In this document: piece after piece, positions 2,840 to 42,376 of the stretch
How the letters are laid out: the number at the start of each line of letters is the position of its first letter
Numbering within the stretch: the first letter of the stretch is position 1
Made by a program: the position numbers and the translations under genes
IMG/VR virus record: IMGVR_UViG_3300021425_000064
Location: 1-42,403 of that record
Length of the DNA: 42,403 nucleotides
DNA from: a virus
Strand: one strand, 5' to 3'
The notes under the pieces: model-generated
What the model saw: only the letters and a program-made list of their open reading frames with translations
Databases searched by the model: none
Told to the model about the DNA's origin: nothing

Positions 2840-5800
2840 TTAACTAAGTGCTAGGATGAAAGGTGTTACCTCAGAGAATAAACTTCTTGAGAATGCTCTA
2901 CCACTAATTGTACCAGTGTTTTGATTGATTTGTAAGTCATCACCAATCCTGAAGTTTCCTGCCTGATCAGTGCTGGTGTAAATTACTCTACCACCATTTT
3001 GACTCACAACCTCATTTTCTTGAATTGTAACACCGCCTCTTTTGGGAGTAGCTGTAGTGATATCATTTCCAGATCCAATATATTCAAAAGTATGAGAACT
3101 TGCAATAATTTTACTTTGTTGGAAGAAGAATACTGTAGACCCAACACCCACTGTATTGATTAGATTCTCATCAAGTGTTAATGTAGTAATTCCAGATACG
3201 ATAGGTGTGGCACTATTTATTGTATAGTAAGTATCCGCCATATTGGCAGTTGCTGATGCACTACTTCCACCACCACCAGAAATAATAACTGAAGGTGTTG
3301 ATTCATATTGACTTCCACTACTGATTATTGTAATTGACGCGACACTATCACCTTCAATAGTGGCAAATGCAGTTGCTGTTTCACCATTCGGACCTGTTGG
3401 GGCATCAAGAGTTACATCTGGAGTAGAAGTGTAACCGCTTCCACCATCAGTAACTGTAATTGTTTCTACGGACTTGTAGAGTTGATCAAAATAAACAATC
3501 TGTCCGTCATATGGACGTGTCTGTCCAGATCCAACATTGATAGTTACATTATCTTGTGCCGCGGCCGCCGAAGTTGTAACAGAACCAGTAAACTGTTCAG
3601 AACCTTTACCATTAGCGACCAAACCAAAGGTTCCAAAACTACAATTACTATTAGCAATATCAGCTTGTCCACCAGCATGACAAGTTATTGCTCGGTCACA
3701 ACAAATAGTGAATACTGATACCAACTGAGCATATCCTTCATTTGTGACAGCTACTCCGACACCACCTTGATTATATTGAGTGAAGGCGTCAACGTTCATT
3801 GACTTAGTCAAGACAGCTTTATCACCATCAACTCTAATACCAGTTCCAGTGGTAGTATCACTAGTGCAATTCTGAATATATGGACCTTTCCACTTACCAC
3901 CACCAACATTAGTAGCACCAGATGTTGGGAATGCGACAGCAGCTGATGGAGCCAGGTGACCAGAGAAAGTCATATTGGCTAACTTACATCCTTTATTGAC
4001 ATGGAAGATATCTTGAGTTGTGTTACTTGGTAGAACCTTCACACTTCTCAAATCATCACCAACGATAGAAACAAATGCTGGAACTGTGATTGGATTATTT
4101 TCAACATAATTGCCAGATAACACTTTGATAACTGAACTGGATTGTGCAACTCCAACTGCTGCAGAAATTGTGAGGAATGCGTTATCAATCGATGTTCCAT
4201 TATTGTCATCACTACCATCTTTAGCAACATAGAAAACATTTGGTGCAGAGTTAATACCACTAGCACCACCACTGATTGTTATATTATCACCAAGATAAAC
4301 TGTAGATCCTGTAATGGTAACAATGCCTGCTGTGATGGTATTATTATCACCATCAATGGTAACAGATGCAGTACCAATAGTGAGGATACCAGTGATTCTT
4401 GCATCACCACGAACTAGGAGCGCAGTTGTAGCTGTTCCTGTGTTGACTTCGAGACCACTTCTAAAAGTTGAAAGTCCAAGAGAGTCTACACGTTTTACAT
4501 CATCATAAGTAATTGTTCCAGCAACATTCACATTTGTGAAATTACCAGTTGTCATCGTGATAGCAATACCACTGATGAAGTCTGTACTTATACCAGTACC
4601 ACTACCACTACCTAAAGCTGTACTGGCAATACCTACCCATTTAGAGTTAGCCTGATCATAAATCAGTAGTTTGCCATCTCCTGTTGTTTGGTCGAATGAA
4701 ACATCATCAAGATCTTTGATGAATCCTGCTCCTCCACCACCCATGGTGGCAAGTTGAGTAGTTATTCTAGCCAGGAACAATCTGTAGTGGTTAGACAGAT
4801 CTTCCAGTGTTGCAAAGTTTTGATTTAGAGGTGTCAGTGGATCAGTTTGTCCACTTGCAACTTCCTTTTCTTCTGGTGGTTCGTTAAGGAGATAATTTTC
4901 TTTTAATTCAACCTGTTCAGTTTTGATTACAGAAGCAAGCTTAGATATCTCTTTTAGTTCTTTTCTGATAGAGATGATATCTGTATTAATTTTGATAACA
5001 TCATCATCATAATATTTTACTTCAGGAAGTGAATCAACAGTCTCCTTCAGGTCAGTAAAGAATTTAACGATGGATTCATCAGCCTTGATGCTCTGTTCAT
5101 TAATTTTCTTAATTTCATCCTGAAGAGATTGTTTAAGTTTATTCTGCTCACTGAGTAATGATTTCTTTAACTTTCTATCATCATCCTTTGATGTATGATG
5201 TTGTTCCCATATTCTACGAGAAACATCTTTAACTTCTTCTAAGAGTTTATCCTTAGTCTCTTTAAGATTTTTATTTGTTTTATCAAAATTTTCGGTAAGA
5301 TGTTCGGAAAGATTCTTTAAGTCTACTTTTAGTTCAAAATCTTTCTTTTCAACTATTTCATTCAGTTCTCTGACTTCAAATTTAATCTTTTCTTTGATAA
5401 TGTTTATATGACATTCGACCTTATCAATATCATCATCAATTAGACTAAAACTTTTAGCAATCCAAGAGAAGTCTGGTGTTTCCTCAGATTCCGAGAACCA
5501 GGACGGAACAGTAGGAATCGACTCACTTACCTGTTCAATTCTTAATTTTAAGGACTCTAAATCCTCTTCATAGTATTTTACCTCTGGAAGACTCTTGAGT
5601 TCTTCCTTAATATCGGTAATTTTGTCATAAATTGAGTTAATATCGTGGTCATAGTACTTGACCGTGGGAATTTTTGACTCAATTTCGGATAATTTACCCT
5701 CAAATTCCTCATTTTGAACATTTAGGACATCAATTTTTTCACTTTTTGCATAATCTTCTTGAATTTGTGCAATTTTGACACAAATTTCCTCTAATTGCTC

Positions 5801-18128: not shown

Positions 18129-19688
18129 TTAGAATTGCAAGATGATCTTTACGTCTTCTTTCTGGGATGAAGACCTTGTAACGGAAGGTCTATTATCAAC
18201 GTAGATGGTATTTCCAGAATATTTTTTCACTTCTGGTTGTGAGACTCCAGATGTGAAACTTTGGCCCAAGTAATAGGTCCTATTATTTATTACCGTAGAT
18301 ATACCTGTAAAATTAGTATCAATCCCGAGAGTGACTGAGCCACCTACGATGTTGAAAGATCCACTTATACCAATATCGGATGTAAATCTGTGAGCTTTGA
18401 ACCCATAGATTGGATTAGCATTCAAAGAGCCATCACTATTGAATCCTGCTGTGGTCTTGTCTTGCCACAGTTTGAGAACTCCAGTGGTTTGATCATAGGA
18501 AACTACTCTACCAACAGCTGTTGATCCTAATCCAACAGTTTGGGTGATATAACTATCTGGAGTAAAGGCAGCTGAACTATACCCAATACCAGTAAGTCTC
18601 AGAGCATAAACCGCACTAGCTTTATCAATATTTAAAATGGAAGATGAATTATATGATTCTGGATTTTCAACTAATCCAACTCTTGCAAATTGGTTTCCTG
18701 TAATATAATCTGGATTGTTGGTATCATTTTCAAATCTAGCATATGTTAAAACACTAAATGCACCTAGTTCTCTGTAAATGTCATAACCATGTCCCCCGTT
18801 TGGTGGGATAATTACGTTAAAAACTGGTGATGTAGTTCCAGATGGGAGACCACCAGATTCGATGTCAAGAGTTCCGAAGGTATAACCTGAACCACCAGAT
18901 GAAACAGTAACAGATTCAATCTTTGAATCATTATTCACGACTACGGTAGCTTCTGCTCCAGTACCATCACCAACAATTGGTACTCTTGTATAAGTTACAT
19001 TAGCCGTTCCAAGTCCAACGCCACGATTTCTTATAGTTACAATCTTAAGTTGACCACTTGTGGAAGCATTTTGTCTTACAGCAACATTATCACTGGTAGT
19101 ATCATACCAATCTGATGGAACTGGAATGTATTCTGTAGAGTCAAACTTGATTGCTTGACTTGGTTTAATAGTATAAAGATATTTCCAAATATATCCGTCA
19201 CCACTTGAACCAGCAGCTCTTGGTTCTAAGTCTGTAAATGTGGGTTCATCAAGAGATGGACTACCTTGAAAATTGTTTTCAGGACTTGCATTATTATAAA
19301 GACAAATATAAACTCTATAATCAGAGTTCATTACATAGTAGTTTGCATCATAAATGTCAAAAGACCCAGATGGTAAAGACTGTCTGTCTCTACTAATATC
19401 ATTTCTCCACATGTCATAGGTGACACCAGATGACCAAATATTTTTTCTAACTACTTGACTAACATCAGAAGTGTTGACCTTCTTCATTGCCAACATCGTA
19501 TCCCAATAGTCATTAGACTGATTAAGATTATCTTTTGGTGATGGTGGATTAGTATCCCAATCAACCTGGTAATTAGTTGCGTTTGGGAGTCCAATAAATG
19601 CATAATAAGAATTTGTGGAAGATTGGACACCCGCCACAAAGTTCTTAGCATTCAAAATACGAAGTTGATCAGTAATTATCGCTGCCAT
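18129..19688 (-). CDS. gp8: Baseplate wedge protein gp8 with inserted modules (519 aa)
   Basis: gp8 links gp6, gp7 and gp10 in the T4 baseplate wedge. The match is in two blocks: GSSGDGYIWKYLYTIKPSQA with the following TEYIPVP (about residues 160-190), and the C-terminal IYVDNRPSVTRSSSQKEDVK ending IILQF. Both parallel T4 gp8 (334 aa) as I remember it. The N-terminal SSTNSYYAFIGLPNATNYQV segment is also gp8-like. The extra 185 residues lie between the two blocks. They include an RGVGLGTANVTY unit and a SSGGSGYTFGTLDIESGG unit of the GGSGYT family. A late promoter core is 19 nt before the ATG, so gp8 heads a unit that continues into the 2539-aa gene. Confidence 0.9.
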   Translation of the reverse strand: MAAIITDQLRILNAKNFVAGVQSSTNSYYAFIGLPNATNYQVDWDTNPPSPKDNLNQSNDYWDTMLAMKKVNTSDVSQVVRKNIWSSGVTYDMWRNDISRDRQSLPSGSFDIYDANYYVMNSDYRVYICLYNNASPENNFQGSPSLDEPTFTDLEPRAAGSSGDGYIWKYLYTIKPSQAIKFDSTEYIPVPSDWYDTTSDNVAVRQNASTSGQLKIVTIRNRGVGLGTANVTYTRVPIVGDGTGAEATVVVNNDSKIESVTVSSGGSGYTFGTLDIESGGLPSGTTSPVFNVIIPPNGGHGYDIYRELGAFSVLTYARFENDTNNPDYITGNQFARVGLVENPESYNSSSILNIDKASAVYALRLTGIGYSSAAFTPDSYITQTVGLGSTAVGRVVSYDQTTGVLKLWQDKTTAGFNSDGSLNANPIYGFKAHRFTSDIGISGSFNIVGGSVTLGIDTNFTGISTVINNRTYYLGQSFTSGVSQPEVKKYSGNTIYVDNRPSVTRSSSQKEDVKIILQF

Positions 19689-41447: not shown

Positions 41448-41585
41448 ATAATACCTTCATGAGTCAATGTATCTTTTGAGGAGATTTCAATGTCGGTTTT
41501 GCTGTCTTCATCGACAAGTGTTTGTGATAGTGGGGGTCTGAGGATTATGACAGATTAGTAATACTGATTTGACAGGATTGGGGGG
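41448..41585. other. Non-coding stretch
   Basis: Only micro-frames occur here (15 codons on minus, 22 on plus). A minus-strand CATAAT at about 41545 with a TCAAAT-type -35 could be a weak promoter for the 41192 gene. Confidence 0.4.
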
Positions 41586-41614
41586 TTGACATGTTCTCGA
41601 AGGTCTGATAGACT
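41586..41614 (+). promoter_or_regulatory. Plus-strand sigma70-type promoter candidate
   Basis: TTGACA (41586-41591) exact, 17-nt spacer, then TAGACT (41609-41614, four of six matches). A second TTGACA lies 17 nt before the first (41569-41574). It points into the DnaA-box cluster and AT-rich stretch, opposite to all genes. Confidence 0.4.
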
Positions 41615-41644
41615 GCGGGCTTAGATAACAATAAGATGAGACAT

Positions 41645-41731
41645 TTATCCACAGGTTTATAACACCTTTCTCTTCTTATTATCAGGGTTTATTCACATCT
41701 TTCTCCACATATTCCACAGGGTTGTGGAAAA
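41645..41731. promoter_or_regulatory. Cluster of DnaA-box-like 9-mers
   Basis: TTATCCACA at 41645-41653 is an exact bacterial DnaA box. TTATTCACA at 41689-41697 and TTTTCCACA on the minus strand (41723-41731) fit the consensus TTWTNCACA. TTCTCCACA at 41701-41709 has one mismatch, and TATTCCACA at 41710-41718 two. All are in 87 bp and next to a 75-bp AT-rich stretch, the layout of bacterial origins. Confidence 0.6.
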
Positions 41732-41807
41732 CAATAAAACACACATATATGTTTTTTAATACATTTTTAATTGAAAAATAACGTTATTTATTCTACTTTT
41801 TTAAACG
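41732..41807. other. AT-rich stretch with two palindromes, possible unwinding element
   Basis: Nearly all A/T between the DnaA-box-like cluster and the stop of the 59-aa gene. It contains ACATATATGT (41743-41752) and AAATAACGTTATTT (41776-41789), both perfect palindromes. It could serve as a DNA unwinding element or as an operator/promoter region. Confidence 0.45.
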
Positions 41808-41987
41808 TTAATTCCATCCCGTAGACTCATCAGGTTCATCAAATTCCTCCTCATCAGTATCATTTGCCGTATAGAGGACAGCATTACATAGGAGTTCAAT
41901 CACCTCATCTACGTTCTCATTTGGGAAATGAGATTCCATAATAGTGATGATGTCTTCTTGGAGATTTGTGACTTGTAAAGAGTTCAT
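41808..41987 (-). CDS. Tiny acidic protein (59 aa)
   Basis: ATG at 41987 is 3 nt after the preceding stop and the frame closes with TAA at 41808-41810, next to the AT-rich stretch. The product starts MNSLQVTNLQEDIITIMESH, a helix, and ends in a strongly acidic tail NDTDEEEFDEPDESTG. The composition and size are like small DNA-mimic or inhibitor proteins of phages, but there is no match I can name. It is the last gene of a three-gene cluster and shares with the others the absence of a Shine-Dalgarno sequence. Confidence 0.7.
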   Translation of the reverse strand: MNSLQVTNLQEDIITIMESHFPNENVDEVIELLCNAVLYTANDTDEEEFDEPDESTGWN

Positions 41988-41990
41988 GAT

Positions 41991-42191
41991 TCAGTTGGAA
42001 TTAAGGAGTTCAGGGTAATACTCAATCACTTCTTCTTTCATCTCTTCGAGTGAATAATCCTCATATGATTTGGTCATGTAATCATGTAGAATAGCGAGAC
42101 AATCGTCTAGATCTAAACCATCAATTACCCGTGTCACATAACGATCAATCAGTTCATCTTTGAGAGAAATGTTGTCAGTGGTTTGTGTCAT
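41991..42191 (-). CDS. Small acidic hypothetical protein (66 aa)
   Basis: ATG at 42191, 2 nt after the previous stop; its own stop is 3 nt before the next ATG. The product reads MTQTTDNISLKDELIDRYVT followed by a helix, DLDDCLAILHDYM, and a C-terminus EVIEYYPELLNSN. From memory, small proteins with this helical build and a YYPELL ending are common in T4-like cyanophages, with no known function. The region before the ATG is pyrimidine-rich (TTTCTTTCTCCTAATC), so translation must depend on coupling or on a leaderless-like mode. Confidence 0.75.
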   Translation of the reverse strand: MTQTTDNISLKDELIDRYVTRVIDGLDLDDCLAILHDYMTKSYEDYSLEEMKEEVIEYYPELLNSN

Positions 42192-42193
42192 GA

Positions 42194-42376
42194 TTAGGAG
42201 AAAGAAAAGTAAGGGTGATCTTCATCTAGGACTTGATCTTCATCAGTCGCTATTAGAAACTGTGTGATAGGATAGTAATCATCTGTCTCTGAATCATAGA
42301 CCGTTGGAGTACAATCTAACTGTTCAGGAGTAAGAGTCAATAACTGATCCAAAAGTTGTTTGTAAGTTTGTGTCAT
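42194..42376 (-). CDS. Small acidic hypothetical protein (60 aa)
   Basis: ATG at 42376, 3 nt after a TGA that seems to end another gene. The product begins MTQTYKQLLDQLLTLTPEQL and has a second half YDSETDDYYPITQFLIATDE. Its first four residues (MTQT) match those of the next gene, perhaps by duplication of the start region. Acidic and helical with no motif. Likely an early-type small cyanophage protein; function unknown. Confidence 0.72.
   Translation of the reverse strand: MTQTYKQLLDQLLTLTPEQLDCTPTVYDSETDDYYPITQFLIATDEDQVLDEDHPYFSFS

Follow-up and report, generated by a model that had tools for sequence, protein, structure and literature searches.

Location and structure of the element

The stretch of DNA considered here, termed the window, is the complete linear IMG/VR record IMGVR_UViG_3300021425_000064 (42,403 bp), a fragment of a T4-like cyanophage. 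The right part of the window matches 179 phage records, nearly all of them Synechococcus or Prochlorococcus phages. Close to the right end lies a cluster of sequences resembling the 9 bp sites (boxes) bound by the bacterial initiator protein DnaA, and this cluster adjoins an AT-rich stretch. An earlier note on the window had proposed that the locus is either a phage origin of replication that borrows host DnaA or a decoy that titrates it. The cluster is part of a larger conserved element that consists of a promoter, a leader, the boxes and the AT-rich stretch. Its features, in order, are:

41586–41614, plus strand: sigma70-type promoter, TTGACA (41586–41591), 17 bp spacer, TAGACT (41609–41614); scan match 10/12; points into the boxes
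41618–41647, plus strand: conserved leader, GGCTTAGATAACAA...ACATTTA, where the transcript is expected to begin
41645–41653, plus strand: DnaA box TTATCCACA, exact, matches TTWTNCACA
41689–41697, plus strand: DnaA box TTATTCACA, matches TTWTNCACA
41701–41709, plus strand: near-consensus box TTCTCCACA, one mismatch, 12 bp from the preceding box
41710–41718, plus strand: near-consensus box TATTCCACA, one mismatch, 21 bp from 41689 and 13 bp inward from 41723
41723–41731, minus strand: DnaA box TTTTCCACA, matches TTWTNCACA and is identical to the DnaA box published for cyanobacteria (PMC4674748)
41728–41802, no strand: AT-rich stretch, candidate unwinding element, 85% A+T, with two palindromes and 11–12 bp TTTTTAATAC-type repeats

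The earlier note had counted one exact box, two further TTWTNCACA sites (one on the minus strand) and two weaker matches within 87 bp, and all of these are located at 41645–41731. Overall, TTWTNCACA is depleted in the window, with three sites in 42,403 bp compared with 7.8 ± 2.7 in shuffled sequences, and all three fall within these 87 bp. The chance that three randomly placed sites would do so is ~1e-5, a figure that comes from post hoc arithmetic. One-mismatch sites by themselves are ordinary; another 90 bp stretch of the window (5712) likewise has five.

The AT-rich stretch has the highest A+T content of all 75 bp segments of the contig and is thermodynamically the least stable of them. It includes two perfect palindromes, ACATATATGT at 41743–41752 and AAATAACGTTATTT at 41776–41789. 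Both the ~75 bp stretch and the palindromes are as previously described, but the composition is 85% A+T and not the nearly pure A/T reported. Short AT repeats similar to those of the window are also found in relatives, and the mean A+T climbs to 71–75% at 100–175 bp past the leader in box-bearing and box-free elements alike.

Most relatives have the promoter pattern TTGACA-N17-TAnnnT at the corresponding position; in Syn9 the -35 sequence is weaker (TTGTGT). The distance from TTGACA to a conserved CGCTWAGAT block is mainly 23, 26, 27 or 29 bp, while the -10 sequence stays 17 bp from the -35 sequence. Because the block distance varies and the gap within the promoter is constant, the block is an element separate from the promoter. 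The ACATTTA of the leader is retained in the column consensus of the 85 related elements described below, although it lies outside the pattern used to find them. In some relatives the leader is tandemly repeated, with ~1.1 extra iteron-like plus strand copies per region vs 0.3 in shuffled sequences. Tandem iterons are a known feature of iteron origins; here the leader repeats occur in a subset of elements only.

Conservation among cyanophages

The nearest ortholog (L534) retains the promoter, the leader, TTATCCACA-GGGT-TGTGGAAAA and the AT-rich stretch, and displays an exact TTATCCACA where the window has the weak TATTCCACA. A box cluster behind a similar promoter and leader is also present in the isolates S-BM3 (at 6.75 kb), S-SM1, S-SM2, S-RIM32, Syn9 (at 52.55–52.60 kb), Syn19, Syn30 (at 13.1 kb) and S-PM2 (at 19.2 kb). 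Some of the box-bearing isolates were found via their similarity to the window cluster; Syn9, S-PM2 and S-SM2 were picked irrespective of boxes. In S-SM1, Syn19, Syn30, S-PM2 and S-RIM32 a T-rich tract precedes the boxes and does not follow them. In S-SCSM1, an exact box and a near-consensus box lie 12 bp from each other. No box cluster was seen in the genomes of P-SSM2, P-SSM4, P-HM1, S-CAM7, ACG-2014f, S-RSM4, Bellamy or S-CRM01, nor in those of T4 or the Pelagibacter phage HTVC008M. Distant elements aligned poorly in a direct multiple alignment.

As the window is a fragment, whole-genome box counts were made in complete relatives instead. Counts of TTWTCCACA are low, with 1–9 per genome, and at least two boxes within 300 bp are found only at the element in the complete relatives examined, except for a second inward-facing pair ~1 kb away in S-RIM32. 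The window itself has no TTWTNCACA outside the cluster. An equal density of boxes elsewhere and a lack of conservation in relatives, either of which would have spoken against the original proposal, are therefore both excluded.

Two isolates display other peculiarities. The deposited record of S-PM2 (L398) annotates two tRNA genes over the DnaA-box cluster at 19177–19333; this annotation looks doubtful, since several tRNAs of that stretch overlap coding genes. In S-BM3 (L004), a long intergenic stretch ahead of the element (4560–4980) is built of repeated CTAGACTAGATTATA-like palindromes.

Box enrichment in elements chosen without boxes

Boxes were counted in two sets of loci obtained without reference to them. 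The counts from the scan of viral contigs refer to the matches listed, which are samples and not totals. In the first set, loci were fetched via a neighbouring glycosyltransferase-like protein (587 kb in total). These have 53 boxes, compared with 15 for reversed-motif controls, and 14 loci have at least two boxes in 300 bp vs none for the control motif. Most of these clusters come after a TTGAC-N17-19-TAnnnT promoter on the same strand.

In the second set, elements were fetched by the promoter and leader pattern only, and 85 had full flanks. Within 260 bp downstream of these are 108 copies of TTWTCCACA, whereas shuffled sequences have 1.1 (the largest of 200 shuffles had 5). Upstream of the same elements there are 17 copies, and reversed or permuted controls yield 0–6. 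Thus several 9-mers that match the host consensus are present well above chance, as in a DnaA-box array. A chance cluster was a concern, given a short degenerate motif in an AT-rich genome and one-mismatch sites that cluster elsewhere too. That clusters recur at this element across many lineages speaks against it, and the enrichment in elements selected without boxes refutes it, such that its probability is negligible.

The boxes are distributed in two states: at least two are found in 40 of the 85 elements and none in 41. The box array is therefore a module that an element either has or lacks. Elements without boxes frequently have additional leader copies (type ATCACAAG-CCTGAGCACATTTA) and short palindromes, for example TTATTGATTCTCAATAA. 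Their downstream flanks show tandem leader copies with a period of ~20–34 bp, together with 7-3-7 palindromes, in place of DnaA boxes. Perhaps these copies and palindromes are sites of another host regulator.

Substitutions, spacing and host DnaA

Single substitutions among boxes in the flanks are mainly at positions 1–3 (A at position 2, A or C at position 3), with a few at position 6. Positions 4, 8 and 9 are almost invariant, and position 5 is stricter than the TTWTNCACA consensus. Both kinds of near-consensus box in the window are enriched in the related elements: the T3-to-C variant, as in TTCTCCACA, is found 9 times vs 0.3 expected, and the T2-to-A variant, as in TATTCCACA, 10 times vs 0.3 expected. 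This is the tolerance of DnaA boxes, where the core is kept and the first positions are looser.

Neighbouring boxes in the same orientation are 11–12, 20–22 or 41–43 bp apart, with two exceptions (47 and 56), and inward-facing neighbours are 12–14, 22–25 or 34–35 bp apart. The spacings in the window fit these classes (41689 to 41710, 21 bp; 41710 to 41723 inward, 13 bp). The phasing persists after related elements are combined into 59 groups, 25 of which have at least two boxes, with some kinship remaining between groups. Spacing is thus helical, as in a DnaA-box array and as a complex assembled cooperatively along a single helix face would need.

The same data bear on whether the TTTTCCACA...TGTGGAAAA pairs form an RNA hairpin or are sites of another protein. 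Inward-facing pairs would give a 9 bp stem in the transcript, and a perfect stem is possible in 20 of 44 multi-box regions. In the other 24 it is impossible, and 18 regions have boxes in a single orientation only; a hairpin as the sole explanation of the inverted boxes is thereby rejected for more than half of the multi-box regions. A protein bound to DNA would account for the helical phasing of boxes in the same orientation and for the tolerance at particular positions, and the consensus is that of the DnaA box already known from cyanobacteria (PMC4674748). Overall, a hairpin or another protein has a low probability.

A DnaA that carries the DHTTV motif is present in the Synechococcus hosts WH7803 and RCC307, and from the match in sequence host DnaA would be expected to bind the phage boxes. 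The dnaN-proximal region of these hosts (L400/L401 and L403/L404), which may not be the host origin, has near-matches only (TTTTCCACG, TTTTCCCCA and TTCTCCACA). Exact TTTTCCACA pairs are found elsewhere in the host genomes, at 1819368/1819412 in WH7803 and at 474410/474443 in RCC307.

E. coli datA is a box cluster that titrates DnaA, and the cyanophage cluster could titrate likewise. As a decoy, consensus boxes multiplied with phage copy number would withdraw DnaA and halt replication of the host chromosome, and full-consensus phage boxes facing mere near-matches in the dnaN-proximal region, if that is the host origin, would favour such an effect. However, there are usually just two or three exact boxes per cluster, and these are linked to a promoter and an AT-rich stretch, not spread or multiplied. 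Unlike datA, the cluster is phage-borne, has few boxes and is coupled to other signals. A decoy function is accordingly given a low probability.

Gene context and transcription unit

The genes to either side of the element lie on the minus strand. Outside the right part that matches phage records, the window reads as an extended run of large structural-type genes, also on the minus strand. Three tiny acidic genes converge on the element, with their 3′ ends facing it:

41808–41987, minus strand: tiny acidic gene
41991–42191, minus strand: tiny acidic gene (DUF7326/phrog_1352)
42194–42376, minus strand: tiny acidic gene

The earlier note had suggested that these genes are under DnaA control. Their orientation gives no support to this, as the promoter points against them, and they are rejected as genes driven by it.

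Around 108 elements (among the matches listed), same-strand coding amounts to 9–12%, and the promoter opposes 88–91% of neighbouring coding. Of 77 cases, 28 have a leftward terminator past the element, at a distance of ~205 bp, and 2 have one upstream; the window shows no recognisable terminator of this kind. The opposing coding and the terminators indicate that the element is typically an insulated, opposing and mostly non-coding transcription unit. The first plus strand gene after the element is a GIY-YIG or HNH endonuclease in L432, L437, L445, L471, L484 and L426, most of which are box-free. Such genes are expected here, because mobile endonucleases settle next to conserved sites.

An alternative is that the element is no origin but an early phage promoter, which would drive a short RNA, either non-coding or antisense (in some phages, a homing endonuclease gene). 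DnaA bound downstream would then be a roadblock or an activator that ties the transcript to the replication state of the host. The promoter and leader are strong and conserved, the boxes are 20–200 bp downstream in the path of the transcript, the RNA would run antisense to the genes nearby, and some contigs have the endonuclease gene in the proper orientation. On the other hand, no plus strand product is conserved and most elements meet opposing genes, and transcription control alone leaves unexplained the AT-rich stretch of both box-bearing and box-free elements. DnaA-controlled transcription, which together with DnaA titration is one of the two main alternatives to an origin, is considered unlikely, if worthy of attention.

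A possible origin of replication

The element looks like a replication origin or a host-replication switch, one undescribed in the literature searched. A transcription-coupled replication origin with a layout like that of T4 oriE and oriF, where DnaA is an accessory that opens or gates it, is in our judgement the most likely interpretation, with an even chance of being correct; many lineages would have added host DnaA sites to it. Host RNA polymerase would start at the lone sigma70 promoter, and the transcript, a short non-coding leader, would cross the boxes and run on into the AT-rich stretch. By analogy with T4 oriE and oriF, this RNA may remain annealed to the DNA there, forming an R-loop that primes synthesis of phage DNA. 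DnaA of the host, on the phased TTTTCCACA boxes, may help open the AT-rich stretch, or may gate the process by host replication state, and the element would act as an early origin. As the boxes are phased and tied to the conserved promoter, leader and AT-rich stretch, an origin that borrows DnaA matches the anatomy more closely than a decoy alone would; of the two functions originally suggested for the locus, it is the origin that holds up better.

Several observations weigh against this interpretation. About half of the elements have no boxes, and S-B05, S-B43 and S-SRM01 have the promoter and the AT-rich tail without them. The window's own close lineage yielded only L534 as a box-bearing ortholog. 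T4-type phages load their own helicase (gp41/gp59), and thus DnaA is not needed for that step. GC skew tracks the coding strand, with no switch at the locus; along ten complete genomes GC and third-position skew are dominated by the coding strand, with no informative switch. Skew is thus compatible with an origin but gives no support to one. Because elements can do without the boxes, DnaA would play an accessory part and not that of an essential initiator. More tentatively, and with somewhat less than even confidence, the element may be a conserved T4-like cyanophage origin that recruits host DnaA. It would then be the first origin of the T4 superfamily to be assisted by DnaA, and the DnaA module would have been gained or lost between lineages.

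Comparison with known systems

T4 oriF and oriG are defined by a promoter and an A+T-rich downstream element, and oriE uses an early (host-type) promoter (PMC3016281). The cyanophage element resembles oriF/ori(uvsY), oriG/ori(34) and oriE in its promoter and A+T-rich downstream stretch. It differs in that oriF and oriG need a MotA-dependent middle promoter, whereas its own -35 sequence is the sigma70-type TTGACA. The box cluster and the conserved, sometimes repeated leader also set it apart from T4; the putative T4-like R-loop is proposed here. T4 replisome genes are common to cyanophages (PMC2984593). According to the same source, a single theta origin is predicted for Syn9 and the origins of other cyanomyoviruses are not known (PMC2984593). 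Syn9 also carries the box cluster.

Bacterial and cyanobacterial oriC likewise have TTTTCCACA boxes that adjoin an AT-rich stretch, with helical phasing (PMC4674748). Unlike oriC, the cyanophage element has tiny phage genes and not dnaA or dnaN as neighbours, shows no GC-skew switch, has only 2–5 boxes with an integral upstream promoter, and lacks boxes in half of its homologs. The phage lambda origin and plasmid iteron origins combine repeats, DnaA-responsive transcription or boxes, and an AT-rich region, as is the case here. They differ in that no adjacent initiator gene was identified at the cyanophage element, and its iterons are variable.

In the literature searched, which did not include some subscription papers, among them those on the Syn9 genome and transcriptome, no paper links cyanophages to DnaA boxes, apart from two unrelated ones; none deals with phage DnaA titration, and none gives a mapped replication origin for T4-like cyanophages. 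To our knowledge, T4 is held to replicate without DnaA. T4-like cyanophages rank among the most abundant viruses of the sea. The fixed position of the phased host-DnaA sites gives a precise locus to study in several cultured phage-host pairs, and suggests that in some lineages phage replication, or the arrest of host replication, may be coupled to the host initiator.

Other sequences near the element

A search of Rfam revealed no family at the locus. About 60 bp ahead of the element, near the promoter, a 44 bp sequence (41480–41523) matches at 89–91% a segment within gene 47, which encodes an SbcD-like nuclease subunit, of S-H9-1, S-RSM4 and S-WAM2, and appears as a stray gene fragment.
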